From: Hydrogenophilales bacterium 28-61-23
GTDB taxonomy: Bacteria > Pseudomonadota > Gammaproteobacteria > Burkholderiales > Thiobacillaceae
Assembly (NCBI GenBank): GCA_002281555.1
Contig: NCGJ01000001.1
Span: 1-64,000, forward strand
Length of the DNA: 64,000 bases
Direction of reading: 5' to 3'
The position numbers were made by a program, and so were the translations under genes. Below, piece by piece: positions 45,739-61,507 of the stretch (the first letter of the stretch is position 1; each line of letters opens with the position of its first letter). The notes beneath the pieces are model-generated. The model did no database searches, was not told where the DNA came from, and was given only the letters and a program-made list of their open reading frames with translations.

Positions 45739-45780
45739 AGCGTAGATGCCAAGGCTGGTGCTGTCGGTACGCTGTCGCAC
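45739..45780 (-). promoter_or_regulatory. Stress-motif promoter of BON2
   Basis: On the minus strand: GTGCG-ACAG-CGTAC (45780-45767), then CGAC, 22 bases in all to the hexamer TACGCT (45744-45739), with C before it. The palindrome centre is 41.5 bases before the inferred start. The remainder of 45673-46110 holds a divergent copy toward the PEP-CTERM gene and nothing else. Confidence 0.65.
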
Positions 45781-45953
45781 ATAGCGCGGAGGAATCACGC
45801 GACACGACCCAATGGCCAATACCCAATGGCCAAGACAGCGCAAGCGGGGAGGGGGAGGCGAACGCAAGGGCTTGTTGCACGCTAATGCGACCTGGTACGG
45901 ACGCTCGCAGCGGTCGGCATGGACAGTCGTCGCAAGCGAGCGTCGGCGCTTAT

Positions 45954-45995
45954 GTGCGTCTCCGCACAGACACCGCCACATCGGCACCATAGGAT
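45954..45995 (+). promoter_or_regulatory. Stress-motif promoter of the PEP-CTERM gene
   Basis: GTGCG-TCTC-CGCAC (45954-45967, arms perfectly complementary), AGAC, then TAGGAT at 45990-45995 after exactly 22 bases. TAGGAT matches four of six -10 consensus positions. It faces the gene starting at 46111. Confidence 0.65.
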
Positions 45996-46005
45996 CGGCG
46001 CGTCG

Positions 46006-46037
46006 GAGACTGTCCGATGTCGAGACTGTCCGATGTC
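46006..46037 (+). repeat. 16-bp perfect tandem duplication in the leader of the PEP-CTERM gene
   Basis: GAGACTGTCCGATGTC occurs twice without interruption (46006-46021 and 46022-46037). It lies just after the inferred transcription start and 73 bases before the ATG, so it would be in the untranslated leader. Confidence 0.85.
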
Positions 46038-46110
46038 TTATCCCTTCGTTTTCATGCGGTATCGATTCATCCGGTTTGATCGTTACCAACAACCGTTCAG
46101 GAGTACTGAG

Positions 46111-47022
46111 ATGGCAATGCCAAAACAATTATCGATACTGTCATTGGCCATGATCGGCGCGCTTTGCGGCGTCGTTCCAGCGTGGGCTACGCCATTGCTG
46201 GGTTCGGATCTGGCCAGCTTTACGGTGCTGGGCGCCGAGACGGTGACCAATGTCCCCACCAGCACCATCAACGGAAATGTCGGTGTCTGGCCAGGTAGCG
46301 CACTCCCGGGCTTTGCCTCCGTTTCAGGCACCGCGACAGCGGACGGGCAGGTGACCGGAGGACTGGTTCACTCAAACACCGCGCTCGCGCTGTCGGCTCA
46401 GGCTCAACTCACCACAGCAAGAAACAATCTTGATTCTCTGGGGACAGGTACCACCCTGACACTTGCCGACATGGTTGGACTCATCCTCGCGCCGGGCGTC
46501 TATACCGTTCATGCGGGAACAACCAATTTATCGGGCGCGCTCACGCTCGACGGTCAGGGCAACGCCAACGCAGTCTGGGTATTCCAGATGGATTCGGATC
46601 TGATCACCTCGCCCAACTCGGTCGTGAACGTGATCAATACCGGCGCCGGCGCCGGCGTGTATTGGAATGTCCGCAGCTCCGCGACCATCGGTACAGATAC
46701 TGAATTCATGGGCAACATCCTCGCGCTCACCAGCATCACCCTGAAAACCGAGGCAACAAATCTTTGCGGCAGAGCCTTGGCGGATACGGGTGCGGTGACC
46801 TTGGAAATGAACACGCTCTCCGGCATTTGCGCGGGTGATCTGTTTGGCGCCAATGGCTTGAGCGGCGGTCTGGATGTCACCGCCCAGGGAGTTGCCTTCC
46901 TTCCGTCCACACCCATTGGCGGCGGGAGCGTACCCGAACCCGCCACAATGGCGCTGCTGGGACTCGGATTCGTGGGCCTTGGACTGTCTCGGCGTTGGCG
47001 CGCGGCCGAGATAAACAGCTAA
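46111..47022 (+). CDS. PEP-CTERM protein with DUF3494 (ice-binding-like) domain
   Basis: The 303-residue product has a signal peptide (cleavage near PAWA-TP, residue 26), a DUF3494 beta-solenoid domain (about 28-255; ASFTVLGAETVTNVPTSTING in part, GDLGVWP-like GNVGVWPGSALPGF, and VWVFQMDSDLIT), and a C-terminal PEP-CTERM sorting signal: VPEPATMALLGLGFVGLGL followed by Arg-Arg. DUF3494 is the fold of microbial ice-binding and antifreeze proteins and of some adhesins. PEP-CTERM proteins are processed by exosortase and tied to exopolysaccharide matrix. AGGAG precedes the ATG. The exosortase is outside the window. Confidence 0.9.
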   Translation: MAMPKQLSILSLAMIGALCGVVPAWATPLLGSDLASFTVLGAETVTNVPTSTINGNVGVWPGSALPGFASVSGTATADGQVTGGLVHSNTALALSAQAQLTTARNNLDSLGTGTTLTLADMVGLILAPGVYTVHAGTTNLSGALTLDGQGNANAVWVFQMDSDLITSPNSVVNVINTGAGAGVYWNVRSSATIGTDTEFMGNILALTSITLKTEATNLCGRALADTGAVTLEMNTLSGICAGDLFGANGLSGGLDVTAQGVAFLPSTPIGGGSVPEPATMALLGLGFVGLGLSRRWRAAEINS

Positions 47023-47035
47023 GCGATGGAGCGAG

Positions 47036-47064
47036 CCGACCGCGTCGTGACGCGGTCGGTTTGT
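47036..47064 (+). terminator. Terminator of the PEP-CTERM gene
   Basis: CCGACCGCGTC (47036-47046) and GACGCGGTCGG (47049-47059) make an 11-bp perfect stem followed by TTTGT, 13 bases after the stop codon. Confidence 0.8.
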
Positions 47065-47096
47065 ACGGCGGGTTTTACTCAAGCTCCACACAGCCG

Positions 47097-49574
47097 TCAG
47101 CGTGGCGCTTCGTCATCACTGGCGGCCAGCAAGTGCCCGAAGTCCTCGGCTGACAAGGGATAGCTGAACAGAAAACCTTGTACTTCGTCGCATTGCCGGG
47201 CCTGGAGAAACTCGAGCTGCGCCTGGGTTTCCACACCCTCGGCAATGACCTGCTGGTTGAGGTTTTTCCCCATGCCGATCACCGCGCTGACGATGGTCGC
47301 GCCATCCGGATTGGTGGCGATGTCGCGCACGAACGATTGGTCGATCTTCAGCGTGTCGATCGGGAATCGCTGCAGATAACTCAGGCTCGAATAGCCGGTG
47401 CCGAAGTCGTCGATGGCTAGTCGCACGCCCATGGACTTGAGTGTTTCCAGCACTGTCGCCGAGGACTCGGCCGCGTGCATGAGGATGCCTTCGGTCAACT
47501 CCAGTTCGAGATAGCGCGGCGCCAGGCCAGTCTCTTTCAGGATCAGGGCAAGATTTTCCAGAAAATCCTTGTGCCTTAACTCCACGGCGGAAATGTTGAC
47601 CGCCACGCGCACGGCGGCTTGGCCGGCATCGAGCCAGGCTTGAACTTGCCGGCAGGCCTCGCGCAGCACCCAGCGGCCGATCGGCACGATCAGGCCGCAT
47701 TCTTCCGCTATCGACACGAACTGCCCCGGATAGACGAGGCCGAGTTCCGGATCCTGCCAGCGGATCAGCGCCTCGGCGCCGGTCATCGCGCCGGTGGCGA
47801 GATCGATCTGCGGCTGGTAGTGCAGGACAAACTCGCACTGTCTGAGGGCGCGGCGCAGACTGCTTTCGACCTCCATCCGATGCACCGCGCTGGTGTTCAT
47901 GTCGGGCCGGAAAAACTGGAAGCTGTTGCGGCCGCTGGCCTTGGCGTGAAACATCGCGGTGTCCGCGTTCTGCATCAAGGCGTCGACGTTGTTGCCGTCA
48001 TCCGGATAGATGCTGATGCCGATGCTCAGCGTGATATGGATTTCATGCCCGTCGATCAGGTGCGGCAAGGCGAACGCGGCGAGCAACTTTTCCGCCACGT
48101 GGGTCGCGTCTTTAATCTGCTCGATTTCGGCCAGCAGGATCACGAATTCGTCGCCGCCCTGACGGCATACCGTGTCCGTGGCGCGCACCCCCGCTACCAG
48201 ACGATCGGCGACCGACTGCAGCAACGAATCGCCGATCGCATGCCCGAGCGAGTCGTTGATGTTCTTGAAATGATCCAGATCCAGGAACAGCAGCGCGACT
48301 TGTTTGCGGTGCCGGTTGGCCAACCCGAACGCCTGGTAGAGCCGCTCGGTCAGCAGTATGCGATTGGGCAAACCGGTGAGAAAGTCGTGATGCGCCTGAT
48401 GCGCCATGCGCAACGACATGGCTCGCGATGCGCTGACGTCGTGGAACACCAGCACCGCGCCGACCACCGTGCCTTCCCGGTTGTGTATCGGCGCGGCGGA
48501 ATCCTCGATCGCCGATTCGAAGCCGTCGCGGCGGATCAGCACGCAATCCGCGGCCAGCCCAACGGTCTTGTCCTCCTTGATGGCGCGCTGCGCCGGATTC
48601 GCCGCGACTTCACGGTTGGTGCCGTCGATGATCCTGAATACCTCGGCCAGTGGTTGACCGAACGCGGCTTCACGCGACCATCCGGTCATCGCCTCCGCCA
48701 CCAGATTCAGATAAGTGACCTTGCCCTGGAGGTCGGTGGTCAGCACGGCGTCGCCGATGGAGTTGAGGGTGACCTGGGCGCGCTCCTTTTCCTCGAACAA
48801 CGCCTCTTCCGCCGCTTTGCGCTCGCCGATGTCTTCCAGCGTTATCACGCGCGCGTTCGGTTCGAATCCCTCGCGCAGGGCGGCGCTGTTGAGGCGCGTC
48901 CAGACCACGCTCTTGTCCTCTTGCAGGAAGCGGAACTCGGTCTGGAATGGCTCCTGTCCCCGCATGGCGGCGCGCCACTCGAGCAGAACCCGTTCGCGAT
49001 CCTCCGGGTGGATCGCCATGCTCCAGTTGGTGCCCAGCGCCTGGTCGAAGCTCAGCCCCGAGATTTTTTGATAGGCCGCGTTGGTATAGACGCAATCGCC
49101 CTGCGCGTCGGAGACGAAGATGCCCAGCGGCGAGGCATCGCTTATCGCGCGGAAGCGCGCCTCGCTGCCTCGCAATGCGATGCGCGCAGCCTGACGCTCG
49201 ATGACATAAGCCACGGCGCGCGGCCACCAGTGAGCGTCGATATGGGTTTTGGAAAAATAGTCATGCGCGCCGCGTTGCACAGCCTGGCGCGCAATATCCT
49301 CATCGCTCGCGCCGCTCAGAACCAGAATCAGGGCATTCGGCGCGACTTTGAAGACCTGATCGTAGGCATCGAGGCCCTGGCCGTCGGGCAAGCTCAGATC
49401 GAGCAGGATCACCTCGACCGCCGCGCGGTCCAGCTGTTCGAGCGCGGCGGAGAGTTGTGTCACCCATTCGACATGGAACGAACGCTCGCCCGCGCCAGCC
49501 AGCGCGGCCTGGATCAGATTGGCATCGGCGGCATCGCCCTCGACGAGCAGAACGGTAGTCGGGATATCGCTCAT
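47097..49574 (-). CDS. Response regulator with PAS, GGDEF and EAL domains
   Basis: An 825-residue cyclic-di-GMP protein: receiver domain at about 1-125 (LLLDLSLPDGQGLDAYD with the phosphoacceptor Asp), two PAS domains at about 140-260 and 265-385, a GGDEF domain with an intact R-Q-GGDEF motif, and an EAL domain starting GAEALIRWQDPELG with intact metal ligands (DDFGTGYSSL, later AEGVET). Both synthase and phosphodiesterase sites look complete, so net activity cannot be predicted. ATG 49574 starts MSDIPTTVLLVEGD; the longer frame adds low-complexity sequence. No kinase is adjacent. It converges with the PEP-CTERM gene, hinting at biofilm-matrix control. Confidence 0.93.
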   Translation of the reverse strand: MSDIPTTVLLVEGDAADANLIQAALAGAGERSFHVEWVTQLSAALEQLDRAAVEVILLDLSLPDGQGLDAYDQVFKVAPNALILVLSGASDEDIARQAVQRGAHDYFSKTHIDAHWWPRAVAYVIERQAARIALRGSEARFRAISDASPLGIFVSDAQGDCVYTNAAYQKISGLSFDQALGTNWSMAIHPEDRERVLLEWRAAMRGQEPFQTEFRFLQEDKSVVWTRLNSAALREGFEPNARVITLEDIGERKAAEEALFEEKERAQVTLNSIGDAVLTTDLQGKVTYLNLVAEAMTGWSREAAFGQPLAEVFRIIDGTNREVAANPAQRAIKEDKTVGLAADCVLIRRDGFESAIEDSAAPIHNREGTVVGAVLVFHDVSASRAMSLRMAHQAHHDFLTGLPNRILLTERLYQAFGLANRHRKQVALLFLDLDHFKNINDSLGHAIGDSLLQSVADRLVAGVRATDTVCRQGGDEFVILLAEIEQIKDATHVAEKLLAAFALPHLIDGHEIHITLSIGISIYPDDGNNVDALMQNADTAMFHAKASGRNSFQFFRPDMNTSAVHRMEVESSLRRALRQCEFVLHYQPQIDLATGAMTGAEALIRWQDPELGLVYPGQFVSIAEECGLIVPIGRWVLREACRQVQAWLDAGQAAVRVAVNISAVELRHKDFLENLALILKETGLAPRYLELELTEGILMHAAESSATVLETLKSMGVRLAIDDFGTGYSSLSYLQRFPIDTLKIDQSFVRDIATNPDGATIVSAVIGMGKNLNQQVIAEGVETQAQLEFLQARQCDEVQGFLFSYPLSAEDFGHLLAASDDEAPR

Positions 49575-49611
49575 GGCAACGGTACTCGCGGGATGAGGAT
49601 GAAGTAAGCGC

Positions 49612-49827
49612 CTATTCCCGCTGGAGATCCGGTTGCACGCGCAGATTGCCTTCCCAATCGCAGCCGAGCGAACCGCAGCGGTAGCGGTAGACCGGCATGA
49701 AGAAGTTGATGTACATGTCGAAGGTTCGCCGCTGGACGCGGTACACCGAACCGTTGCAGCAGGGGCAGATGCCGCCGAAAGCGACATGCGGTACAAGCGG
49801 CGGGACTAAATGGCTAAGACTCGTCAT
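49612..49827 (-). CDS. Small zinc-ribbon-like protein
   Basis: A 71-residue product with CPCC near residue 22 and CGSLGC near 52, a pair of cysteine knuckles that could hold zinc, with aromatic-rich sequence between (YINFFMPVYRYRC). I do not recognise a named family; proteins of this style are often phage or plasmid transcription-associated (Ogr/Delta-like) zinc fingers. The ATG at 49827 is inferred from the start of conserved-looking sequence. It lies between the GGDEF-EAL gene and csbD on the same strand. Confidence 0.55.
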   Translation of the reverse strand: MTSLSHLVPPLVPHVAFGGICPCCNGSVYRVQRRTFDMYINFFMPVYRYRCGSLGCDWEGNLRVQPDLQRE

Positions 49828-49918
49828 GAATGCGGTTCTTTCAGGAAAGGTCGGCCCCGATACTTTGCGCGGCGATGTGCCGCGCGCAGATCCGGGCCGG
49901 TAAAAACGGTCTGGACGG

Positions 49919-50122
49919 TCAGTCCTTGTTACGCGCTTCAAACTCCTTGATCTGCTTCTCGGCTTCGTCTTTAGTGATGCCGTAGCTCTCCTGGATCTTG
50001 CCGACCAGCTCGTCGCGCTTGCCGGCAATCACATCGAGGTGATCGTCGGTCAGCTTGCCCCACTGCGCTTGAACCTTGCCTCTGAATTGTTTCCAGTTGC
50101 CTTTGACGATATCCCAGTTCAT
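49919..50122 (-). CDS. CsbD-family general stress protein
   Basis: The 67-residue protein MNWDIVKGNWKQFRG... with VQAQWGKLTDDHLDVIAGKR matches the CsbD family (E. coli YjbJ), small helical, highly abundant stationary-phase and osmotic-stress proteins, often RpoS-dependent in proteobacteria. Their biochemical role is unknown. AAGGAG lies seven bases before the ATG. A hairpin GCGCGGC/GCCGCGC at 49867-49885 may end the transcript. The stress motif lies 142 bases upstream. Confidence 0.93.
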   Translation of the reverse strand: MNWDIVKGNWKQFRGKVQAQWGKLTDDHLDVIAGKRDELVGKIQESYGITKDEAEKQIKEFEARNKD

Positions 50123-50239
50123 TTGAATCTCCTTTGTTCGGAATTCGACCGGCGGAATTACCCGTCGAGCATTCTTCGTCGCTGCTTAATTCACGCCCAC
50201 TCGCGGCGCGGTTCGTTGTTGAACGTCGAATACACGGCC

Positions 50240-50281
50240 AGATTGGTGGAAACGCCGGGCGCGGTCTGTGCGTTGGGGCAC
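50240..50281 (-). promoter_or_regulatory. Stress-motif promoter of csbD
   Basis: On the minus strand GTGCC-CCAA-CGCAC (50281-50268), AGACC, then CAATCT at 50245-50240 after 22 bases. One arm position departs from the others. The rest of the 304-base gap between csbD and the gene at 50427 shows nothing further. Confidence 0.5.
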
Positions 50282-50426
50282 ACAGCCGAGCATTTTCTCG
50301 AAGGCATGGATACCGGCATGTCACCCGGACGCGTGGCACTGGGCATGCTCTGTTCGCCAGCGAACAGTGAACCGGAGAGATTCATGGCAAGTTGGCGTCC
50401 TATCCGATATCCGGAAGGAGTGGATC

Positions 50427-50822
50427 ATGTCCATACGCTTTATTGCCGGTCTGGCGGCCGTGCTCGTGCTTGCTTTTTCCGGTTCCTCGCTGGCCCAGGA
50501 GCCGGCCAGTCTGCGCGAGTTAAAACAACTCCAGGTCTTGCTGGCGGTGATCAACTCGGAACTCAAGTCCGATCTCGACCAGATCCTGGTGTTGCAGGAG
50601 GCGATCAAGGCGAATGCGCGGCCGCTGCTGGAGGCGCAGGGACGCACACCCGACCCGGTTTCGTTCGATGCCGTGGCCGCGTCGCAGCGATTGGCGATCC
50701 AGCGCGAAACGGCGCTCAACGCCCGGCTCGACGCGCTGCTGGCGCGCAGCGCGGCGCTCGACGCTAAAAAGCTGCCGATCCTGGATCGGATGCGGGAAAT
50801 CGGCCTTGCTCCACAGCGTTGA
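50427..50822 (+). CDS. Secreted helical protein of unknown function
   Basis: A 131-residue product with a signal peptide (MSIRFIAGLAAVLVLAFSGS, cleavage after SLA near residue 23) and a mature part that is almost entirely alpha-helical and leucine/alanine-rich, suggesting a periplasmic coiled-coil protein. I do not recognise a family. GGAAGGAG precedes the ATG at 50427 by seven bases, which fixes the start; the frame is open further upstream. The AsmA-like gene follows after 43 bases. Confidence 0.7.
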   Translation: MSIRFIAGLAAVLVLAFSGSSLAQEPASLRELKQLQVLLAVINSELKSDLDQILVLQEAIKANARPLLEAQGRTPDPVSFDAVAASQRLAIQRETALNARLDALLARSAALDAKKLPILDRMREIGLAPQR

Positions 50823-50865
50823 CCGCTCACCTGTGGCGAACGCCTCTTCCCGTTCCCGGACAACC

Positions 50866-52797
50866 ATGACTTTGCCTCGTTCGCTCAAATGGATTGCCGG
50901 TGCTTTGCTCGCGCCCATCATGCTGGTGGCGCTGTTCATCGCCGTTTTCGGCTGGAATTTGCTGCGCGCCCCGGTCGAGCGCATCGCGCTGGAAAAAACC
51001 GGGCGCGTACTGGCGATCGGTGGCGATATCGAAGTCGAGTTCGGCTGGCCGCTGCCGCGCATTCATGCCGGCGCGACGACGTTCGCGAATCCGGCCTGGG
51101 CGAGGGAAAAACAGATGGTCGCGGCCGATGCGGTGGAGGTCGTTATCGACTTGCCGCAACTGCTCCGGGGCGGCATCGTCATTCCCGAACTGCGCCTCAA
51201 GCGTCCGTTGATCTTTCTGGAGCAAGGCGCTGATGGCCGCAAGAACTGGCTGCTGGACCGCAAGCAACAGGACGAAAAAGCGCGTATCCATGTCGGTCGC
51301 CTGGTACTGGATCAGGGTGTGCTCGGCTACGACGATGCCGGGCGCAACACCCATATCCGGGCGGAACTCTCCACCTCGGACACGCGACCCGCCGGCAAAG
51401 AGCTGACCTTCACTGCACACGGGCAATACAAAGGCCAGCCCCTCACCGCGCGCGGCACTGGCGGGCCGGTACTGGGCTTGCGCGACACGACACTGCCTTA
51501 TCGGCTGAGTACCGACTTCAGTCTGGGCAACACCAGCGTGAAAGCCGACGGCAGCATCACCAATCTGCTCAAGCCTGCCGCGATGGACTTGCGCGTCGCC
51601 CTGCGCGGCGAGAGTCTGGCGCAGCTCTATCCGCTGCTGGGCATTACCTTTCCGGAATCCCGCGCTTTCGTGTCGGAAGGGCGCGTCGTGCGCGGCAAGC
51701 AGCTATGGCGCTACGAAAAATTCACCGGCCGGATCGGCGACAGCGACATCGCGGGCACCTTCCAGATCGATAGCGCCGGCAAACGCCGGGTCATGAAAGG
51801 CGAGCTGGTTTCCAATCTGCTCTATTTCTCCGATCTGCGTACTCTGATGGGCGCGCGTGTCGGCAACCCGCAAGACGCCCGGTTGGCACAACGGGCGGTG
51901 GCGCCGACGACGCCTACGCATGCGCGGCTGCTGCCGGACATCCCGCTCAAAAACGAGCGCTGGCATCGCGGCGATGCGGAAGTGACCCTGCGCGCCAAAA
52001 CCTTCCGCCGCGCCAAGGGGCTGCCGCTGGAAAACCTGGTGACTCATCTCAGTCTGCGCGATGCCGAGTTGACCTTCGATCCGCTCGATTTCGGGCTCGC
52101 CGGCGGCCACATCAAGGGGGTGATCAAACTGGATGGACGCGGCAACCCGATCCTGACGCACGCCCAGGTGCGGGCCAGCAAACTTCAGCTTGCCAAGCTG
52201 TTTCCGAGCGTCAAGTTACCCAAGCACAGCATCGGCCAGATCGACGGCGAGTTCGATCTGGCCGGAAGCGGCAACTCGGTCGCGCGCATGCTGGCCAGCT
52301 CCAGCGGCAAAGTTGGACTGGTCGTCGCCCGAGGCGAGATCAGCCAGTTGATGATGGAAAAAATCGGCCTGCATCTGTGGGAAACGCTGCAACTGAATGT
52401 GACCGGTGACAAACTGGTCAAATTGCACTGTGGCGTGGCCGACTTCGCCGTCAAGGACGGCGTCATGCACGCCAACGCGCTGATCTTCGACACCGAAGTC
52501 ACCACGCTTATCGGCACCGGCAACATCGATCTGGGCCAGGAAAAACTGGATGTCACGCTGAATCAGAAAACCAAGAACACCAGCCTATTTTCCATGCGCA
52601 GCCCGATCCACATTCGCGGCAGCTTCGCCCGGCCCGAGGTCGAAGTCGACAAGGCACGCCTGACCGCGCGCACGCTCGGCGCGATCGCGCTGGGCATGGT
52701 CAATCCGGTGCTTGCGCTGATCCCGTTGGTCGATACCGGTACGGGAAAGGACAGCGATTGCGCGCAACTGGTGCGCGATGCACGGGCGTTGCCGTAA
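50866..52797 (+). CDS. AsmA-family envelope protein
   Basis: The 643-residue protein has an N-terminal membrane anchor (about residues 8-30) and the AsmA layout: the N-terminal block with RAPVERIALEKTGRVLAIGG and a C-terminal AsmA_2 block with GEFDLAGSGNSVARMLASSSG (pieces: ALEKTGRVLAI, AGSGNSVARML). AsmA-like proteins form periplasmic beta-groove bridges that carry phospholipid to the outer membrane. A second, partial copy of the last 65 codons lies at 53280-53480. With the Mla-type operon at 55-58 kb it suggests attention to envelope lipid balance. Confidence 0.88.
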   Translation: MTLPRSLKWIAGALLAPIMLVALFIAVFGWNLLRAPVERIALEKTGRVLAIGGDIEVEFGWPLPRIHAGATTFANPAWAREKQMVAADAVEVVIDLPQLLRGGIVIPELRLKRPLIFLEQGADGRKNWLLDRKQQDEKARIHVGRLVLDQGVLGYDDAGRNTHIRAELSTSDTRPAGKELTFTAHGQYKGQPLTARGTGGPVLGLRDTTLPYRLSTDFSLGNTSVKADGSITNLLKPAAMDLRVALRGESLAQLYPLLGITFPESRAFVSEGRVVRGKQLWRYEKFTGRIGDSDIAGTFQIDSAGKRRVMKGELVSNLLYFSDLRTLMGARVGNPQDARLAQRAVAPTTPTHARLLPDIPLKNERWHRGDAEVTLRAKTFRRAKGLPLENLVTHLSLRDAELTFDPLDFGLAGGHIKGVIKLDGRGNPILTHAQVRASKLQLAKLFPSVKLPKHSIGQIDGEFDLAGSGNSVARMLASSSGKVGLVVARGEISQLMMEKIGLHLWETLQLNVTGDKLVKLHCGVADFAVKDGVMHANALIFDTEVTTLIGTGNIDLGQEKLDVTLNQKTKNTSLFSMRSPIHIRGSFARPEVEVDKARLTARTLGAIALGMVNPVLALIPLVDTGTGKDSDCAQLVRDARALP

Positions 52798-52974
52798 GCA
52801 AAGCCCCCGGACTTCCGACCAAATACCAGGCCTTGATCGCAAGGGAAAAGGGTCGCCCGCATCGACGCGAAATCGGCGACCGATTCTGGCTGTCTTCCAA
52901 CCCGAGGACGGATGGCTGCTCCCTGGAAGGGGCGTGTGGCGGTGACGGGAAAGGGCTCGTACAAGACCGTCTCT

Positions 52975-53016
52975 GTACGACATCGCACAGACCAGCGTTG
53001 GTTTTCAGCCTACTTT
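52975..53016 (+). promoter_or_regulatory. Stress-motif promoter upstream of the 26-residue peptide
   Basis: GTACG-ACAT-CGCAC (52975-52988), AGAC, then TACTTT at 53011-53016 after exactly 22 bases, preceded by C. The 332-base gap 52798-53129 holds nothing else recognisable. Confidence 0.65.
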
Positions 53017-53129
53017 TCAATCGTGGCAATGGTCTTCGATTGATTGATTTCAACTCCGCCACGTACTGCCTGCGGCAGCCGTCGCGGGCGATTTGAATCG
53101 AAGATGGCGACATCAACTGTACGGAGTCG

Positions 53130-53210
53130 ATGATGGGAAAATATCTCTTGGGTTGGCTTTTGGGTGTTCCGGTCGTGGTGCTGGTCATTATTTATCTGTT
53201 TTTTAATTAG
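53130..53210 (+). CDS. 26-residue single-span membrane peptide
   Basis: The frame encodes MMGKYLLGWLLGV, then PVVVLVIIYLFFN: a lysine followed by a hydrophobic span of about 20 residues with a Gly-Val-Pro kink. GGAG lies seven bases before tandem ATG codons (53130, 53133). A dedicated stress-motif promoter ends 113 bases upstream. Small proteins of this shape (short basic head, one helix, bulky aromatic tail) are common stress-induced membrane peptides in proteobacteria. Too short for standard gene callers; support comes from ribosome site, promoter and composition. Confidence 0.65.
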   Translation: MMGKYLLGWLLGVPVVVLVIIYLFFN

Positions 53211-53279
53211 GTCGGGCAACGGCGACAGGCTTTCTGTTAAAGCTGGGGAGCCGAGGTTGCAGCGGCAAGCTGTCACCGG

Positions 53280-53480
53280 CGCCCCATCGCGATCCACATT
53301 CGCGGCAGCATCGCCCGGCTCGAAGTCGACAAGACTCATTTGACCGCGCATACGCTCGGCGCGATTGCACTGGGCATGGTCAATCCCGCGCTGGCGCCGA
53401 TCCCGTTGATCGATACCGGTACGGGAAAGGACAGCGATTGCGCGCAACTGGTGCGCGATGCCCGGGCTTTGTCGCGCTGA
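53280..53480 (+). pseudogene. Duplicated 3' end of the AsmA-like gene
   Basis: About 200 bases match the last part of the AsmA-like gene (52600-52797) at the DNA level, still in frame to a TGA at 53478: IHIRGS, LTAHTLGAIALGMVNPALAPIP and DTGTGKDSDCAQLVRDARAL (20 residues) against the same segments of the intact gene. A six-base in-frame deletion and several substitutions separate them. No start, promoter or upstream domain is present, so it is the stump of a second AsmA copy or of a segmental duplication. Confidence 0.8.
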
Positions 53481-53498
53481 GTGGAAATCCTGTTTCGT

Positions 53499-53540
53499 GT
53501 TCGTTGTCGTACAGACGCTTGCCAGCACTTGCGTCACCCT
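53499..53540 (+). promoter_or_regulatory. Stress-motif promoter of the DsrC-like gene
   Basis: GTTCG-TTGT-CGTAC (53499-53512), AGAC, then CACCCT at 53535-53540 after 22 bases. The -10-like box is weak. It points to the gene starting at 53668. Confidence 0.5.
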
Positions 53541-53667
53541 GCGGACAAGGACATGGCGATGACATAAGCCTCCGCCCCGAAACGACGGCGTCAAACCCGA
53601 TTTTCGGCGAGTGGTTTTAACGCTATGCACGAGCGCGCGAAACAAGTTGAACAACAGGAGGTTGACC

Positions 53668-54036
53668 ATGAACCAAGCTACACAGGATTTCATCCGCCCG
53701 GGTTACGAAACCCAGCCCATCCCCGACTTTCCCTATGCGCCCAGCGACTGGTCGCGAGCAAGCGCCGAGGAATTGGCCCAGTCGGAAGGACTGACGCTGA
53801 CCGAAGCGCACTGGCGGGTCGTGCGTGCGTTGCAGGCGTTCTATGCGCAGCATGAGGAACCCAGCGTGAACGCGCGCGAACTGCATGACGCGCTCGACGA
53901 GGATTTCCATATCGAAGGCGGCATCAGGTATCTCTACACCCTCTTCCCCAAGGGGCCCTTGGCCCAAGGCTGCCTGCTGGCTGGCTTGCAAGCGCCAGCG
54001 GGAACACAGGATCAGGGCTTCGGCAGCGCGGTCTGA
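53668..54036 (+). CDS. DsrC/TusE-family sulfur-carrier-like protein lacking the terminal cysteine
   Basis: The 122-residue protein has the DsrC/TusE fold signatures LTEAHWRVVRALQAFY and IRYLYTLFPKGPLAQGC. In DsrC two cysteines on the C-terminal arm carry sulfur; TusE keeps only the last. Here Cys102 corresponds to the inner DsrC cysteine, while the penultimate Cys of the usual LPKPxxC end is replaced by a tail without cysteine (AGTQDQGFGSAV). It therefore cannot work as a standard sulfur carrier and may be a regulatory member of the family. GGAGG precedes the ATG. No dsrAB or tusBCD genes are near. Confidence 0.85.
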   Translation: MNQATQDFIRPGYETQPIPDFPYAPSDWSRASAEELAQSEGLTLTEAHWRVVRALQAFYAQHEEPSVNARELHDALDEDFHIEGGIRYLYTLFPKGPLAQGCLLAGLQAPAGTQDQGFGSAV

Positions 54037-54267
54037 ATGATCGTGGTCGGGCGGAATTCGTAGGCCGCGCCGGCCCCGGGCGGGGAAGGTCGTATGTGTG
54101 CCATCGAACCGACCGCGCTTGCCTGTACGACCATGCTGAATTAAGCATCCGCGTTTCCATACGTGAACCCCATCAGTCGCCGCACCAGGCGCAATGGGGA
54201 ACTGGCCACAAATAAGGATGTGCGATAGGCAATTCCGCCTGTCGGATTAAATACAAGGATATTTGCT

Positions 54268-54720
54268 ATGAATCTGTTTAAACGCAATGTGTTGGCGGCC
54301 GCGCTGTTGGCCGCGCTTGTCTCTCCCGCCGCCGTCATGGCCGATCAAGTTCCGGCGCCCACCGAGGCCGTCGAGCAACCCGCCGCTACCCCCGCGGCGG
54401 ATCGCATGGATTTGATGCAGACCATGCGCAACCGGATGTTCGAGATGATGCAGGCCACGGACCCGGCCAAGCGCAAGGAACTGATGGATGCCCAGGTGAA
54501 AGACATGGAGGCCATGAAAAAGATGGCACCCCCCGCTGGTATGGGTATGGGCATGGGCATGGGCATGGGACCGGGTGCCGGCATGATGGGCCCGAGAGGC
54601 AGGTGCGATCAGCGGATTGACCGTGCCCGCCTTGCCGATACCAACAGCCAGCGCCTGGATGCTTTGGAAAAACGCATGGACTTGATGCAAGCCACGTTGC
54701 AGATGCTGCTGCGCGACTGA
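54268..54720 (+). CDS. Secreted methionine-rich protein with Gly-Met repeat
   Basis: A 150-residue product with a signal peptide (cleavage near VMA-DQ, residue 25), a methionine-rich helical part (MDLMQTMRNRMFEMMQ), a (Gly-Met)n stretch at 91-101 followed by a glycine/methionine linker, and a C-terminal helix LEKRMDLMQATLQMLL. The repeated MDLMQ motif at both ends suggests an internal duplication. Methionine clusters can bind copper(I) or silver or act as oxidant sinks; this is inference. No named family was recognised. Confidence 0.75.
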   Translation: MNLFKRNVLAAALLAALVSPAAVMADQVPAPTEAVEQPAATPAADRMDLMQTMRNRMFEMMQATDPAKRKELMDAQVKDMEAMKKMAPPAGMGMGMGMGMGPGAGMMGPRGRCDQRIDRARLADTNSQRLDALEKRMDLMQATLQMLLRD

Positions 54721-54752
54721 GTCGGGTCCGGGCAACGCCAGCCTTCCACGAT

Positions 54753-54777
54753 AACGGCGCCTGCGGGCGCCGTTTGC
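54753..54777 (+). terminator. Terminator after the methionine-rich protein
   Basis: AACGGCGCC (54753-54761) pairs with GGCGCCGTT (54766-54774), followed by T, 33 bases after the stop codon. Confidence 0.7.
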
Positions 54778-54846
54778 TCTCTCAAGATTTGCTAATAAAC
54801 CCCCGGCGGTCGCGGCCCCCATTTGTCCAAAGTGGAAACCATGAAT

Positions 54847-56459: not shown

Positions 56460-57271
56460 GCTGGCCTTTCCGTGTTTTCGTGGGTGTTTTCGTGGGTTTT
56501 TTCCGCGCCGCCCGTCCGCGCGGACCGCCCGCGCGGGCCGTCGAAGAATTTCCGGATGGCCGGGTTATCCATTGCGGCGAGTTCATCCATCGAGCCGATG
56601 CCTTGCACCTTGCCATCGGCGAGCACGGCGACGCGGTCGGCCACCTGCCATAACAGATCGAGGTCGTGCGTGATCATCACGATGGTGAGGCCGAACTGGT
56701 CGCGCAACTTGCGCACCAGTTGGTCGACTTCGCCGGCGCTGTCCGGGTCGAGACCGGCGGTGGGCTCGTCGAGAAACAGCAGTTCCGGGTCGAGCGCCAG
56801 GGCGCGGGCGAGGGAGGCGCGCTTCAGCATGCCGCCGCTGAGTTCGGCCGGGTACTGGGCTCCGACTTCGGGTTTGAGGCCGGTCATGGCCAACTTCCAG
56901 GCCGCGATTTTGTCGATCAACGGGTCATCCAGCCCGGTGTGCTCGCGCAGTGGCAGGCCGATGTTTTCCGCCACCGTCAACGAACCGAACAGGCCGCCAT
57001 GCTGGAACATCACGCCCCAGCGCTGGCGCAGCGCCAGCGCGTCGGCGTCGGCAATGTCTTGCAGATCGACGCCAAGGACACGAATCGAACCCGAGTCCGG
57101 CTTTTGCAACAGGATCATTTCGCGCAGCAGCGTCGATTTGCCGGAACCGCTGCCGCCCACCAGGGCGAAAATCTCGGCGCGTCTCACTTCGAGGTCGAGG
57201 CCGGCATGCACGACATGGTCGCCGAAGCGGGTCGACACCTGGCTGAGTTCGATCGCGGCGGTGTCTGGCAT
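56444..57271 (-). CDS. Mla-type ABC transporter ATPase
   Basis: A 275-residue ATPase with Walker A LVGGSGSGKSTLLR, the signature LSGGMLKRASLARAL, Walker B LLFLDEPTAGLDP and the switch His in MITHDLD. It resembles MlaF and powers lipid movement by the neighbouring permease. A single base separates it from the permease stop. Confidence 0.93.
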   Translation of the reverse strand: MPDTAAIELSQVSTRFGDHVVHAGLDLEVRRAEIFALVGGSGSGKSTLLREMILLQKPDSGSIRVLGVDLQDIADADALALRQRWGVMFQHGGLFGSLTVAENIGLPLREHTGLDDPLIDKIAAWKLAMTGLKPEVGAQYPAELSGGMLKRASLARALALDPELLFLDEPTAGLDPDSAGEVDQLVRKLRDQFGLTIVMITHDLDLLWQVADRVAVLADGKVQGIGSMDELAAMDNPAIRKFFDGPRGRSARTGGAEKTHENTHENTERPAWKPK

Positions 57272-57272
57272 G

Positions 57273-58397
57273 TCAGAGGCCCAGCGTGCTGAAGGCGATG
57301 GAGAACAGGGCGTCGGCCACGATCACCAGGAAGATAGCCTGTACCACGCTGCGCGTGGTCTGGCGGCCGACGCTGTCGGCGCCGCCGTGGGTGCGGAAGC
57401 CCTGAAAACAGCCGACCACGGCGATGATGCCGGCGAATACCGGGGCCTTGCAGATGCCGATCAGATAGGACGTCACGCTGACCGCCTTGACGAAACGGTC
57501 GAGAAATTCGGGGAAGCCGATGCCCAACTGCGCGCGCGCCATGATCATGCCGCCGAACACGCCAAGCGCGTCGGCGAACACGGTCAGCAGCGGCATCACC
57601 AGTAACAGCGCGAGTATCTTCGGCAGCACCAGCAGTTCCAGCGGGGCGATGCCGAGCGTGCGCATGGCGTCGATCTCCTCGGTCACCGCCATGGTGCCGA
57701 TCTGCGCGGCATAGGCGGAACCAGAGCGCCCGGCGATGATGATGGCGGTGATCAAGGGCGCGAACTCGCGCAGCATGGACAAGCCGACCAGATCGGCAAC
57801 GAAGATATTGGCGCCGTATTGCCGAAGCTGGTCGGCGCCCTGATAGGCGACCACGATGCCGAGCAGGAACGACAACAGCCCGACGATGGGCAGCGCATCG
57901 AAGCCGGCCGTGCGGATGTTGTACAGGATCGGCCGCCAGCGGATGCGCGCGGGGTGCGCCAGCCAGCCGGCAAACGCCGCCACGCATTCGCCGATGAAGC
58001 TGAGCAGCGCCACAGCCTGTTCGAACGCTTCCGCGGCGCTCTCTCCGATGTGTTCAAGCATGGTCGGGCTGGCGGCGGCCGCCGGCCGGTCAGTCTGCTC
58101 GCCGAGGTGTTGCGCCACGGCGGCCAGCAGTTTGGCGAATTCCGGGCGCAAGCCATTCAGGGTGACGACGCTGCCTTCGCCACGCAGTCGCTGTAACAGC
58201 TTTTGCAGCAGCCACGCACCGGCCGAGTCCATCGCCTCGATGCCGGTGCCATCGGCGATTACCGTGGCAGCCCCATGCACCGCCGCAAGCCGCTGTTCGA
58301 TGTCGCCGATGCCGCGCGCGCTCCAGCAGCCCGACAAGGCAAGCTCTTGCGGCGTCGGCTGGGCGATTGCGGCGGGGTTCGGCGACAGGCGTGTCAT
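57273..58397 (-). CDS. MlaE-family permease with N-terminal STAS domain
   Basis: The 374-residue protein joins a STAS-like domain (about 20-110, with DSAGAWLLQKLLQRL) to a MlaE permease domain with five or so helices (AYQGADQLRQYGANIFVADL region, GRSGSAYAAQIGTMAVTEEIDAM in part). In E. coli the STAS protein MlaB is separate, so this is a natural fusion. It opens the four-gene minus-strand lipid-transport operon. Confidence 0.92.
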   Translation of the reverse strand: MTRLSPNPAAIAQPTPQELALSGCWSARGIGDIEQRLAAVHGAATVIADGTGIEAMDSAGAWLLQKLLQRLRGEGSVVTLNGLRPEFAKLLAAVAQHLGEQTDRPAAAASPTMLEHIGESAAEAFEQAVALLSFIGECVAAFAGWLAHPARIRWRPILYNIRTAGFDALPIVGLLSFLLGIVVAYQGADQLRQYGANIFVADLVGLSMLREFAPLITAIIIAGRSGSAYAAQIGTMAVTEEIDAMRTLGIAPLELLVLPKILALLLVMPLLTVFADALGVFGGMIMARAQLGIGFPEFLDRFVKAVSVTSYLIGICKAPVFAGIIAVVGCFQGFRTHGGADSVGRQTTRSVVQAIFLVIVADALFSIAFSTLGL

Positions 58398-58436
58398 GGA
58401 TCGTGGCGCCAGGATTGCTCGACCGGCAGCGGCAGC

Positions 58437-58628
58437 TCAGCGCCCGTCCGGCCCGGCTTTGTCCACTTTTTTATCGCCGTAGAACGGGAGATTGCCATCG
58501 GCCTCGAAGCGCTTTTTCGCGCTGGGCCGGTAGATCCAGGCCACGATGAGCAGAAACAGCAAGGGGAGGCCGATGAACAGGCCGTATTTCGCGAACAGAT
58601 CGACGAGTTGGTCCATTTGATTCTCCAT
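58437..58628 (-). CDS. CcoQ/FixQ-like small membrane protein
   Basis: The 63-residue protein has one hydrophobic span (about residues 16-32) followed by YRPSAKKRFEADGNLPF, the signature of the cbb3 cytochrome oxidase subunit CcoQ (FixQ). No ccoN, ccoO or ccoP gene is near, so it is an orphan, either a spare CcoQ or a stress-linked relative. It lies 39 bases before the Mla-type operon on the same strand and could be co-transcribed with it. Confidence 0.75.
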   Translation of the reverse strand: MENQMDQLVDLFAKYGLFIGLPLLFLLIVAWIYRPSAKKRFEADGNLPFYGDKKVDKAGPDGR

Positions 58629-58783
58629 TGAGGTTTTCGGCGGGCTGCAACACTGGACTGCCCGGCCAAGGCTGAGGTCGGCATAAATCCCTCACGCTCC
58701 CCGTGGCGGCGGTCTTTGTCGTGTCGCGCGGGACATCCGTTCCCTGGCCATGCCGAGTCAAGCTGGCGAAAAACCGGGCATGT

Positions 58784-59071
58784 TCACGGATGGGCAATCG
58801 GCCTTTCCGTGAACAGATATTCGTTGAGCTGGGAGGAAAAGCTTGGGTCTTGGCGCCGTATCCACTCCAGCAACATGGCGGCATGCTCTTTTTCCTCGTC
58901 GCGATTGTGCTGAAGGATGGCCTTGAGTTCCGTGTCCCGGCATGCATCCGCGCGTTGGTTGTACCAATCGACGGCTTCCAGTTCTTCCATCAAAGCAACA
59001 ATGGCTCTGTGCATGTCGCGCGTGTCCGTGGACAGCTCCTCTATGGGTTCGTGATAACCGACGCTGGACAT
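58784..59071 (-). CDS. Encapsulin-type ferritin-like protein without cargo tail
   Basis: The 95-residue protein closely resembles encapsulated ferritin (EncFtn): ETRDMHRAIV-like TDTRDMHRAIVALMEELEAV, VDWYNQRADAC, and HNRDEEKEHAAMLLEWIRR. The ferroxidase ligands can be placed at Glu30, Glu60 and His63. Normal EncFtn proteins continue with a tail ending in an encapsulin-targeting peptide (LGIGSL type). This one stops at TERPIAHP, and no encapsulin gene is adjacent. It probably works as a free ferroxidase. A stress-motif promoter lies upstream. Confidence 0.9.
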   Translation of the reverse strand: MSSVGYHEPIEELSTDTRDMHRAIVALMEELEAVDWYNQRADACRDTELKAILQHNRDEEKEHAAMLLEWIRRQDPSFSSQLNEYLFTERPIAHP

Positions 59072-59132
59072 TTTTTTCTCCTGATTGATTGAGTACCGGG
59101 TTCTTGGCGCTAAACATCCGATCGCCAAGGCA

Positions 59133-59174
59133 AGGCTAGTTCCACGATCCAGCGCAGTCGGTACGCTGTCGTAC
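59133..59174 (-). promoter_or_regulatory. Stress-motif promoter of the ferritin-like gene
   Basis: On the minus strand a perfect GTACG-ACAG-CGTAC (59174-59161), CGAC, then TAGCCT (59138-59133) after exactly 22 bases, preceded by C. It is the best palindrome of the set. Confidence 0.7.
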
Positions 59175-59252
59175 ATAAGGCAACATGAGGAGATGGTCTT
59201 GGCGCGGGTGTCGGCTATCCCTTGCCGACGAGCTTATAGACGAGCGACATGG

Positions 59253-59300
59253 CCGCGTAGGCGCTGAAGCGCCAACGATTCCGCTGCCCAACCTACGCGG
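59253..59300 (-). terminator. Nested hairpins at the end of the FMN reductase gene
   Basis: CCGCGTAGG (59253-59261) and CCTACGCGG (59292-59300) form an outer 9-bp stem; inside it GGCGCT-GA-AGCGCC (59260-59273) forms a second hairpin. The outer arm overlaps the TAG stop of the reductase. It may be a terminator or a copy of a dispersed GTAGG-type palindromic repeat. Confidence 0.55.
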
Positions 59301-59862
59301 TCTGGTTCTTGTTCGCCGCGTTGATTTTTACCAACTGCACCAGCGCGGCCAGCAGCTTGCGGATGTGTTCCCGGGTCGGCATATCGGTCAGTCTGCCGCC
59401 TGGATCGAAGCGCTGGGCGGCATTGCCGATCATCACTTCCGGCTGGCTGACCACCGGCATGCCGAAGGCGACCAGGATCTGGCGCAGGTGGTATTGCGCC
59501 CGGGCCGTGCCCAGATTGCCGGGAGAAGCGCCCATAATCGCCGCCGGTTTGTCGGTCCAGGCGCTTTCGCCAAAGGGTCTGGAGGCCCAGTCGATGGCGT
59601 TCTTGAGCACGCCTGGAACCGAATAGTTGTATTCCGGCGTGGCAAACAGGATGCCATCGGCGGCCAGAATCTGTCGCTTGAGTTCAAACACGGCGGCCGG
59701 CAACTTCATTTCGAGGTCCTGATTGAACAGTGGAATGCCATGCAGTTCGATCAGGTTAAGCACCACGCCGTCGGGCAATAGTTCCCGCGCCGCCTTGAGT
59801 GCGTAGTGGTTGAAGGAGTCTTTGCGCAGACTGCCGACGATGCCCAGAATTTTGATCTCATT
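59293..59862 (-). CDS. NAD(P)H-dependent FMN reductase (flavodoxin-like)
   Basis: The 189-residue protein has the flavodoxin-like FMN site GIVGSLRKDSFNHYAL at the N-terminus and ATPEYNYSVPGVLKNAIDW, typical of the NADPH-dependent FMN/quinone/chromate reductase family (ChrR/YieF-like). Such enzymes reduce quinones or metals by two electrons and protect against redox cycling. ATG 59862 has AGGCG upstream. A stress-motif promoter is 33-74 bases upstream. Confidence 0.9.
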   Translation of the reverse strand, partial: NEIKILGIVGSLRKDSFNHYALKAARELLPDGVVLNLIELHGIPLFNQDLEMKLPAAVFELKRQILAADGILFATPEYNYSVPGVLKNAIDWASRPFGESAWTDKPAAIMGASPGNLGTARAQYHLRQILVAFGMPVVSQPEVMIGNAAQRFDPGGRLTDMPTREHIRKLLAALVQLVKINAANKNQTA

Positions 59863-59894
59863 CATCTTCACGCCTCTTTTTCCATGTTTTGCCA

Positions 59895-59936
59895 AGACTG
59901 CCAGTACGGAATGCCCGGCGCTGTACGCCAGCGCAC
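59895..59936 (-). promoter_or_regulatory. Stress-motif promoter of the FMN reductase gene
   Basis: On the minus strand GTGCG-CTGG-CGTAC (59936-59923), AGC, then CAGTCT (59900-59895) after 22 bases. The palindrome is strong, the -10 box weak. Confidence 0.55.
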
Positions 59937-60035
59937 AGAGAAAAGGCGAGGACCAGGGTTAGCCCTGATTGGCAAGCAGCCGCAGCCAATATGGAAACCT
60001 GATGAGCAAGCTGTCTCAGCTACGCAGCGCGTGCC

Positions 60036-60069
60036 CCTTGCGTCCGCCTTACGAAGGGCGGACGCAAGG
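60036..60069 (-). terminator. 13-bp perfect inverted repeat after the glycine-rich stress gene
   Basis: CCTTGCGTCCGCC (60036-60048) and its complement (60057-60069) are separated by eight bases, 24 bases beyond the stop of the gene at 60093. It is the strongest hairpin in this part of the window, without a T-run. Confidence 0.65.
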
Positions 60070-60092
60070 CAGTAGGTCGGGCAAGGAAGCGA

Positions 60093-60695
60093 TCAGGCGG
60101 GCGCCATGCTGATGTCCTTGTAACTGCCAACCGCATCCTTGATGACTTCCCGTGCAATCGCCGTTTCCTGCTCCGTCCGGGTCTCCGCCACCAGCACGAT
60201 ATGACCATTTGCGATCGCATCGCCCACCAGGTCGGAAAGCCAGCCTTCCTTGTTGCCAGGACCGGCTGTCGCGCCGGCCGCGGCCCCGATAAAAGCGCCG
60301 ATGCTGGCACCCCAGCCCAGCAGCATCAGAGGCGCGACCAGCGGGCTGGCGATGAACAGCGTCACGCTCGTCGCCGCCAGCGCCACGCTTCCCAGTGCGC
60401 CAAGGCCGGTGCCCACAGCGCCGCCGATTGCGCTATCCACCAATACGTCCTTCAGCACACCGTCGCTCTTCACTTCCTGCGCAGGAGTAGACGAGGTGGA
60501 GTCGGCTGTATAGATCTGCGGTTGTCCGCGCGGCAGCCCGGGCACCGATCCCTTCAGCAGCGTCGCGGCCTCGTCGGCTGCATAGATCTGCAGTTGTCCG
60601 CGCGGCAAGCCCTGCTCGATGAGCGTGGAGAGGGTGCTTTCAGCTTCGTCGCGGTGGGCAAAAAAGCCCGATACGTGGTGGCGATATTCATTCAT
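60093..60695 (-). CDS. Glycine-zipper stress protein with internal repeat
   Basis: The 200-residue protein begins MNEYRHHVSGFFAHRDEAES, the start style of 'general stress protein 17M'/DUF1269-type proteins whose N-terminal domain resembles a ferredoxin-like regulator. A 13-residue segment GLPRGQLQIYAAD (29-41) recurs as GLPRGQPQIYTAD (53-65). Residues about 90-165 are a glycine/alanine-rich zipper (GGAVGTGLGALGSVAL, GASIGAFIGAAAGATAGP) likely to insert in membrane. ATG 60695 has AGGAG upstream. A stress-motif promoter precedes it. Confidence 0.8.
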   Translation of the reverse strand: MNEYRHHVSGFFAHRDEAESTLSTLIEQGLPRGQLQIYAADEAATLLKGSVPGLPRGQPQIYTADSTSSTPAQEVKSDGVLKDVLVDSAIGGAVGTGLGALGSVALAATSVTLFIASPLVAPLMLLGWGASIGAFIGAAAGATAGPGNKEGWLSDLVGDAIANGHIVLVAETRTEQETAIAREVIKDAVGSYKDISMAPA

Positions 60696-60740
60696 GTTGT
60701 TTCTCCTGAGGATGACCCGTGCGTTAACGGATGGCGTTCG

Positions 60741-60782
60741 AGTCTCTCCGGAGCGCGGCGATCGGTCTGTACGACGTCGCAC
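60741..60782 (-). promoter_or_regulatory. Stress-motif promoter of the glycine-zipper gene
   Basis: On the minus strand GTGCG-ACGT-CGTAC (60782-60769), AGACC, then GAGACT (60746-60741) after 22 bases. Confidence 0.55.
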
Positions 60783-60911
60783 GTAGAAACCGATTGTCTG
60801 CGTGCGTTACCGAACGGAACACAGATCAGTCTCGGTGCACCTTGCGCGCTGGCCCGTCGCGTTTTGGCGCTTCGCTTGCTGTGTCCGCGCAGGATTGATC
60901 GCAACCCTCGC

Positions 60912-61220
60912 TTACCTGAGGCGCATGTCGTTGGTGACGCTTTTCACGCCGCTGGTGCCGCGCGCCAACTCGACAGCCTTGTCAACAGCGGCCTGCGAAC
61001 TCACAAAGCCGCTCAGTTGCACCACCCCCTTGAAGGTGCTGACATTGATCTGGTTATCCTTCGTCATGGGATCGTTGTAGATGGCCGCCTTTACCTTGGT
61101 GGTGACGTCGCTGTCTGCCAGGTACTGGCCAGTCTCCCGCGGCGTGGGCGAACAACCCATGGCGGACACCAGTGTGGCGGCCAGGAAAACTGCGGAAAGA
61201 TACTTGCTGATCTGTTTCAT
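60912..61220 (-). CDS. BON-domain lipoprotein 3
   Basis: The third BON lipoprotein (102 residues), with signal peptide ending VSAMG-C23 and the same core VQLSGFVSSQ and NDMRLR as the pair at 44.9-45.7 kb. It is 15 kb away but shares with BON2 both the palindrome and a 21-base block at the start of the transcript (19 of 21 identical). CAGGAG lies seven to ten bases before the ATG. Dispersed duplication with its promoter, or a common ancestor cluster later split, would explain this. Confidence 0.92.
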   Translation of the reverse strand: MKQISKYLSAVFLAATLVSAMGCSPTPRETGQYLADSDVTTKVKAAIYNDPMTKDNQINVSTFKGVVQLSGFVSSQAAVDKAVELARGTSGVKSVTNDMRLR

Positions 61221-61291
61221 GGTTGAGTCTCCTGAAGGTGGGAATGGCTTCGCCGGCAATTGCCGCCGTGCCAAGTCGAAACCTGAGTGGC

Positions 61292-61333
61292 AACGTAGTC
61301 CCGACGCCCACCGGGGTCTGTACGCTGCCGAAC
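61292..61333 (-). promoter_or_regulatory. Stress-motif promoter of BON3
   Basis: On the minus strand GTTCG-GCAG-CGTAC (61333-61320), AGACC, then TACGTT (61297-61292) after exactly 22 bases, preceded by C. Confidence 0.65.
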
Positions 61334-61464
61334 AAAATACAGAAGAGAGCAGGCTCCGGTCGGGCACGTCGGGCTGGATCGCGGCCTGATCCAGGATTTC
61401 GCGGGCGAACTCGAAGGTCTTGGATATCTCGCTGGCACAGTCGCCGCACACAGTGCAGGCTTGC

Positions 61465-61507
61465 GTTAGCCATCGCACAGACGACGGATTCCATCAACCC
61501 GCACCCT
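61465..61507 (+). promoter_or_regulatory. Weaker stress-motif copy upstream of the hydrolase gene
   Basis: GTTAG-CCAT-CGCAC (61465-61478), AGAC, then CACCCT at 61502-61507, here after 23 bases. One arm is degenerate. It faces the hydrolase gene at 61539, and together with the BON3 promoter accounts for the gap 61221-61538. Confidence 0.4.

Follow-up and report, generated by a model that had tools for sequence, protein, structure and literature searches.

The first 64,000 nucleotides of contig NCGJ01000001.1 of Hydrogenophilales bacterium 28-61-23 (the window) carry a recurrent palindrome, GTNCG-N4-CGNAC, upstream of small genes. Judging from sequence, it is very probably the operator of activators of the CRP/FNR superfamily encoded in the same accessory island, which would govern their own genes and a number of small genes of envelope and stress families by class II activation. 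A regulator dimer would bind the palindrome centred at -41.5, replace the -35 element and contact RNA polymerase at a sigma-70 type -10 box. Activation would turn on the regulator genes themselves (autoregulation) together with genes for BON proteins, CsbD, EncFtn-like, DsrC-like, FMN reductase and crystallin/glycine-zipper proteins, and others.

An initial annotation of the window had listed nine copies of GTNCG-N4-CGYAC, plus a weaker one at 61465, as a shared promoter motif of a stress regulon. All ten sites are present in the sequence and the observation holds overall. Eight of the nine are exact on one or both strands, while 50268 (GTGCGTTGGGGCAC) has one mismatch, as has the "weaker" 61465. 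Exact GTNCG-N4-CGNAC copies absent from that list stand at 50352 and 60802, and a further weaker site lies at 54096, upstream of gene 54268. Interval 45739-61507 (15.8 kb) holds 10 exact copies and the remainder of the 64 kb holds one. The genome rate predicts 0.38 for the interval (Poisson P ~1e-11), and 300 Markov shuffles of it gave a mean of 0.5 and a maximum of 3 copies, which bears out the claim of more order than chance allows. If one mismatch is tolerated, the window as a whole shows no excess (50 found, 49.2 expected), so that the signal consists of the exact matches and their placement. Genome-wide, the motif occurs 85 times and its reversed 14-mer 117 times; the motif is thus clustered, not abundant. 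Outer bases lengthen it to the 16-bp dyad TGTnCG-N4-CGnACA (14 in the genome versus 2 for the reverse), and the longer palindrome reads approximately T-n-TGTnCG-N4-CGnACA-GA around the GTNCG-N4-CGNAC core, with the 5-6-5 geometry of CRP/FNR operators. The AGAC or CGAC reported on the gene-facing side comes down to GAC, present at nine of the ten sites (the exception is 59923).

Contig numbering (contig C7) continues that of the window, and the next 60 kb were added so that 124 kb were scanned. Exact copies number 19 between 45.7 and 110.1 kb, against 1.2 expected. A weight matrix derived from sites in other species scored at least 9 at 37 places: three before 44 kb (two within genes, best score 12.3), 34 at 45.7-110.1 kb and none beyond. 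Setting aside two of the 34 that lie within genes and one offset duplicate, 31 distinct non-coding places remain. A second model, R1, was built from 50 foreign sites (66 selected, 60 of them available), each with a -10 box; because R1 carries the box by selection, it is no test of the box. Across the 3.5 Mb genome, 150 of the 740 first-look candidates were scored with R1, which gave 31 matches at expectation values (E) up to 10; 28 of these (25 distinct sites) fall in this 65 kb. The genome scan proposed in the initial annotation thus came out in favour of a regulon. R1 recovered nine of the ten annotated sites and missed 61465, which also lacks a -10 box at the right distance and is doubtful as a member. 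Among 61 genomes, 29 have R1 matches at E up to 0.1.

The predicted regulon reaches further than first described, over an island about four times the annotated interval that includes the likely regulators. Its predicted direct targets outside the window include genes for a crystallin/glycine-zipper protein, a YflT-domain protein and a DUF5670 protein. The first (C7:76482-77294) combines a beta/gamma-crystallin domain and a glycine zipper in one protein; a collagen-repeat gene (77670-77987) is divergent from it, and two regulon sites lie between them. R1 matches outside the island stand at C15:40676, at C25:257948 upstream of another BON gene and, weakly, on contig C4. The genome's best match is the first of these (G000:C15:40676-40721), near a polysaccharide-deacetylase-like gene. 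Of 23 genomes in the genus, some of them incomplete, 12 including this one have a detected regulator, and the island is therefore probably accessory.

The arrangement of the promoters speaks to the mode of action. Among 126 foreign single-target sites, chosen without regard to a -10 box, TAnnnT-like bases appear at offset 37-42: 58 of them have [TC]AnnnT at offset 37, 16 have it at 38 and 7 at 36, and any other single offset accounts for about 2.5. If the box spans -12 to -7, the palindrome is centred at -41.5, where class II activators bind. In the island itself, with sites between divergent genes left out, the box lies at exactly 37 on the gene-facing side of 8 of 12 single-target sites and on the far side of none; site 104907 has a perfect TATAAT. 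The -35 place in the foreign-site consensus reads ACAGAC and is not TTGACA-like. CRP/FNR-like proteins might instead bind the site and mainly repress, blocking RNA polymerase at the -35 region. The site spans approximately -49 to -34, which is also a blocking place, and several promoter regions hold two or three sites. Repressor sites, however, are usually scattered in position, and a fixed centre at -41.5 without a TTGACA-like -35 element is the arrangement of a class II activator. We regard predominant repression as unlikely.

Conservation in other proteobacteria was followed in 80 loci, the best 80 of at least 589 confirmed, chosen solely by a protein relative of one regulator and extending up to 10 kb to each side, with farther targets outside this view. 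Accumulibacter, Propionivibrio, Thiobacillus, Halomonas, Marinobacterium, Dyella, Steroidobacter, Collimonas and Burkholderia are among them. Of the 80 loci, 45 contain the exact 16-mer, with 68 copies in all, compared with 10 for the best of 29 rearranged patterns and 0 to 4 in ten shuffles. Allowing up to one mismatch raises the number to 276 sites in 75 loci, and 211 of these lie in non-coding DNA ahead of a gene; control patterns averaged 9.8 of 55.2, with a maximum of 22. In an inverted-repeat scan of the loci, TGTnCG with a 4-bp gap ranks second, behind GCAnAC, which lies within genes in 61 of 61 cases (56 in genes with the regulator words QTAVC, QTAAC or CNRHH).

The foreign targets form clusters of regulators (55 loci), BON-type proteins (13), a lipoprotein like that of gene 103783 (12), CsbD (11), PAS/response-regulator-like proteins (8), DUF3309 (4) and, smallest, DsrC-like and DUF5670 proteins (2 each), named from domain matches of their members in this genome or from reading; the glycine-zipper match of lipoprotein 103783 is below the Pfam cut-off. 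Several targets of the window are therefore conserved ones. The proposed check of site conservation was likewise passed: in relatives the sites again precede genes for regulators, BON proteins, CsbD and similar products, and the other-species model matches almost solely in this island, so that a shared regulon is supported. BON and CsbD genes recur elsewhere, and EncFtn-like and FMN reductase genes are in no target cluster of at least two foreign loci. The word "stress" reflects the gene families and is best kept as a putative label.

The site is tied to the regulator family in several ways. Over 81 genomes, exact sites rise with regulator number (rho 0.56, P 5e-8; reversed-pattern control 0.20, P 0.08). 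Genomes average 9.9 sites with at least two regulators (n=15), 5.1 with one (n=12) and 3.8 with none (n=54), this last mean including G063, a genome whose 31 exact copies include 28 from a CRISPR-like array. An apparent exception, G058, has a regulator gene fragment at a contig end. Outside this genome, the site stands upstream of 87 of 159 distinct regulator genes, the best control reaching 11 and the median 3; these genes were gathered with a word pattern and a home-made caller, which caught only one regulator of this genome, left out of the counts. Sorted by the residue after RR in the recognition helix, the site is found at 65 of 115 E-type, 19 of 27 V-type, 1 of 13 S-type, 1 of 3 A-type and 1 of 1 P-type genes. 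Of 23 sites at V-type genes, 8 have a variant CGnCCA half, with C replacing A in the final ACA; none of the 82 E-type sites does. The variant is seen at C7:109154, the site of the V-type gene of this island (TGTGCGCTACCGACCA), and in loci L048, L049, L051, L056, L073, L084, L100 and L117. A base-for-residue code for S-type helices was considered and dropped: a looser GTNCG-like site accompanies 8 of the 13 S-type genes, a sample that is too small and bound to lineage.

It could also be argued that another DNA-binding family owns the palindrome and that the CRP/FNR genes, which bear the site themselves, are merely targets. The CRP spacing and the class II position argue against this, as do the dependence on the recognition-helix residue (seen in 13 S-type genes only and lineage-bound) and the way in which regulator number tracks site number, co-occurrence having been looked at for the CRP/FNR family alone. 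We consider such an owner very improbable.

Several observations weigh against class II activation by the island's own regulators. The box lies on the far side at offset 37 in 16 of the 126 foreign sites, and 4 of the 12 single-target promoters of the island lack [TC]AnnnT (60768 and 110024, with GAnnnT, 75557 and 83260). Nine of the 80 regulator-bearing loci have no promoter site. For the 49 genomes of the family, regulator number correlates with the control pattern too (rho 0.30, P 0.04), less strongly than with the motif (0.61), and the difference between E- and S-type helices (Fisher P 0.0008) is confounded by lineage. G004, of the same genus, has 11 model matches and no regulator was found in it; an incomplete assembly is merely a guess. 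The matrix scan found no site directly before the regulator gene at 105777, and four paralogues with one common motif make it ambiguous which would act at a given promoter.

All four regulators have a C-terminal Crp-type helix-turn-helix (PF13545, 49 to 57 bits, cut-off 27). The N-terminal cyclic-nucleotide-binding-like beta roll (PF00027) is above its cut-off of 27.5 in three (33.8, 36.1 and 28.1 bits), and the Pfam search did not detect it in the 109263 regulator. An AlphaFold2 (AF2) model of the 105023 protein has a CRP fold (predicted local distance difference test score 86.7, predicted template modelling score 0.86) with further C-terminal helices carrying a CxC motif; in Foldseek its best match is a CRP (E 8e-13, template modelling score 0.73), and the nearest solved structures are CRP, GlxR and FNR. 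In 47 proteins chosen without the word pattern, residues C142, H146, C219 and C221 never vary; C142 and H146 are likewise invariant in 161 pattern-chosen proteins, where the invariance of C219 and C221 is built in by the pattern. Together the four may form one shared site, a candidate for metal or redox sensing, through which the signal would be received.

That the repeats are a mobile or structural element is a negligible prospect. The idea draws on G063, where the CRISPR-like array accounts for 28 of the 31 exact copies; island copies vary at the N positions, 31 of 34 matrix places are distinct and non-coding, and the -10 box keeps a fixed distance. The array itself (G063:C1:473954-477929, L126/L129) has a 28-bp repeat with a 60-bp period, and the repeat with its preceding T contains the exact 16-mer, a trap for genome-wide motif counts. 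Also dropped were chance, on the interval counts and the comparisons with rearranged and control patterns, a sigma-factor -35 element, on dyad symmetry and the ordinary -10 box, and an FNR or cAMP-CRP site, on the differing consensus.

Table 1. Predicted operators and associated genes in the window and regulator genes of the island (contig numbering). Gene calls are from a home-made caller, with approximate starts. PWM, position weight matrix score; Pfam, Pfam match.
Feature	Position	Strand	Context	-10 place	Remarks
Predicted operator	45766..45781	-	before BON gene 45358-45672 (BON Pfam)	TACGCT 45739-45744	PWM 22.3; R1 E 5.6e-4
Predicted operator	45953..45968	+	before gene 46117-47022	TAGGAT 45990-45995	exact 16-mer; R1 E 0.005
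Predicted operator, one mismatch	50267..50282	-	before csbD 49919-50122 (CsbD Pfam)	CAATCT 50240-50245	R1 E 0.015
Predicted second operator	50351..50366	.	between csbD and gene 50427-50822		exact 16-mer; not in initial annotation
Predicted operator	52974..52989	+	before 25/26-residue peptide gene	TACTTT 53011-53016	PWM 25.3; R1 E 0.004
Small hydrophobic peptide gene	53133..53210	+			25 aa, or 26 aa from ATG at 53130
Predicted operator	53498..53513	+	before DsrC/TusE-like gene 53668-54036 (DsrC Pfam)	CACCCT 53535-53540	exact 16-mer; R1 E 0.07
Predicted operator	54095..54110	+	before gene 54268-54720 (no Pfam match)	CATGCT 54132-54137	PWM 18.9; R1 E 8.4e-4; not in initial annotation
Predicted operator	59160..59175	-	before EncFtn-like gene 58784-59071 (EncFtn-like Pfam)	TAGCCT 59133-59138	R1 E 0.0015
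Predicted operator	59922..59937	-	before FMN reductase gene 59293-59865 (FMN_red Pfam)	CAGTCT 59895-59900	exact 16-mer; R1 E 0.036 on other strand
Predicted operator	60768..60783	-	before glycine-rich gene 60093-60695 (no Pfam match)	GAGACT 60741-60746	R1 E 0.39
Predicted second, weaker operator	60801..60816	.	33 bp from 60768		PWM 15.8; R1 E 0.9
Predicted operator	61319..61334	-	before BON gene 60912-61220 (BON Pfam)	TACGTT 61292-61297	exact 16-mer; R1 E 2.8e-4
Doubtful site	61464..61479	+	before alpha/beta hydrolase gene 61539-62363	none at offset 37	PWM 13.1; no R1 match
CRP/FNR-like regulator gene	75660-76394	+	site 75557 directly before
CRP/FNR-like regulator gene	105023-105742	+	site 104907 directly before
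CRP/FNR-like regulator gene	105777-106496	-	no site directly before (matrix scan)
CRP/FNR-like regulator gene	109263-109970	+	site 109154 directly before		V-type

Some neighbouring features of the window deserve mention. The gene at 46117-47022, behind a regulon site, encodes an ice-binding-like protein with a PEP-CTERM anchor (Pfam). The 3' end of an AsmA-family gene is duplicated (52604-52794 and 53290-53474, 191 columns, 87% identical) with an operator after each copy, and the peptide and DsrC-like units may thus stem from duplication. Outside this genome, the peptide has one weak look-alike among loci L015 and above (L121, E 0.002). A lone gene for a FixQ/CcoQ-like cbb3 oxidase subunit (58440-58616) adjoins the EncFtn-like gene.

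The initial annotation knew of no described regulon with this site, and the literature agrees as far as titles and abstract starts go: searches with the motif letters, and with CRP/FNR and the target families, gave no description of the site there (preprints and most subscription journals are outside this scope), and a fragment of the motif letters led to papers unrelated by title. Neither Crp nor Fnr appears in the main text of PMC5343134. For many small conserved genes whose role is unclear (BON, CsbD, DUF5670, YflT-domain and others), the present analysis supplies an operator, a promoter position and a regulator that can be tested, and it does the same for a widespread CRP/FNR clade without description in the literature covered; sensing by the invariant cysteines and histidine becomes a direct question. 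More tentatively, and with somewhat less than even confidence, we propose an undescribed clade of CRP/FNR activators, widespread in Beta- and Gammaproteobacteria, that may use an operator code of its own (TGTnCG-N4-CGnACA), sense metal or redox state through a C-terminal Cys3-His site in place of the known N-terminal sensors, and govern an accessory stress island gained and lost with its regulators.

Comparison with known systems places the regulators within the superfamily and apart from CRP, FNR and NtcA. The CRP site, TGTGA-N6-TCACA, is a 16-bp palindrome of 5-6-5 geometry, centred at -41.5 in class II promoters. The fold family, the palindrome with its geometry and the position are shared here; the consensus TGTgCG-N4-CGnACA differs from that of cAMP-CRP, with the half-site TGTnCG where CRP has TGTGA, and unlike CRP the regulators have further C-terminal helices with a CxC motif (AF2 model). 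FNR-type sites read TTGAT-N4-ATCAA, which the operator does not. FNR, ANR and DNR belong to the same superfamily, and Foldseek matched A. fischeri FNR, but the 105023 protein has no Cys before C142 and thus no N-terminal Fe-S motif, which places it outside the FNR subfamily. The cyanobacterial NtcA site, GTA-N8-TAC, is spaced alike and agrees with the GTACG-N4-CGTAC copies, whereas the inner CG is required here and lineage and targets are different. The NtcA family TIGR03697 is the sole NCBIfam match, at a very weak 22.4 and 17.6 bits against a cut-off of 244.95. The low-oxygen-activated (lxa) locus of Burkholderia cenocepacia is a clustered low-oxygen locus; likened by description only, it was dropped as the same system. 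What the island has in common with the CRP/FNR superfamily at large is a predicted 16-bp dyad operator at a class II/I position.

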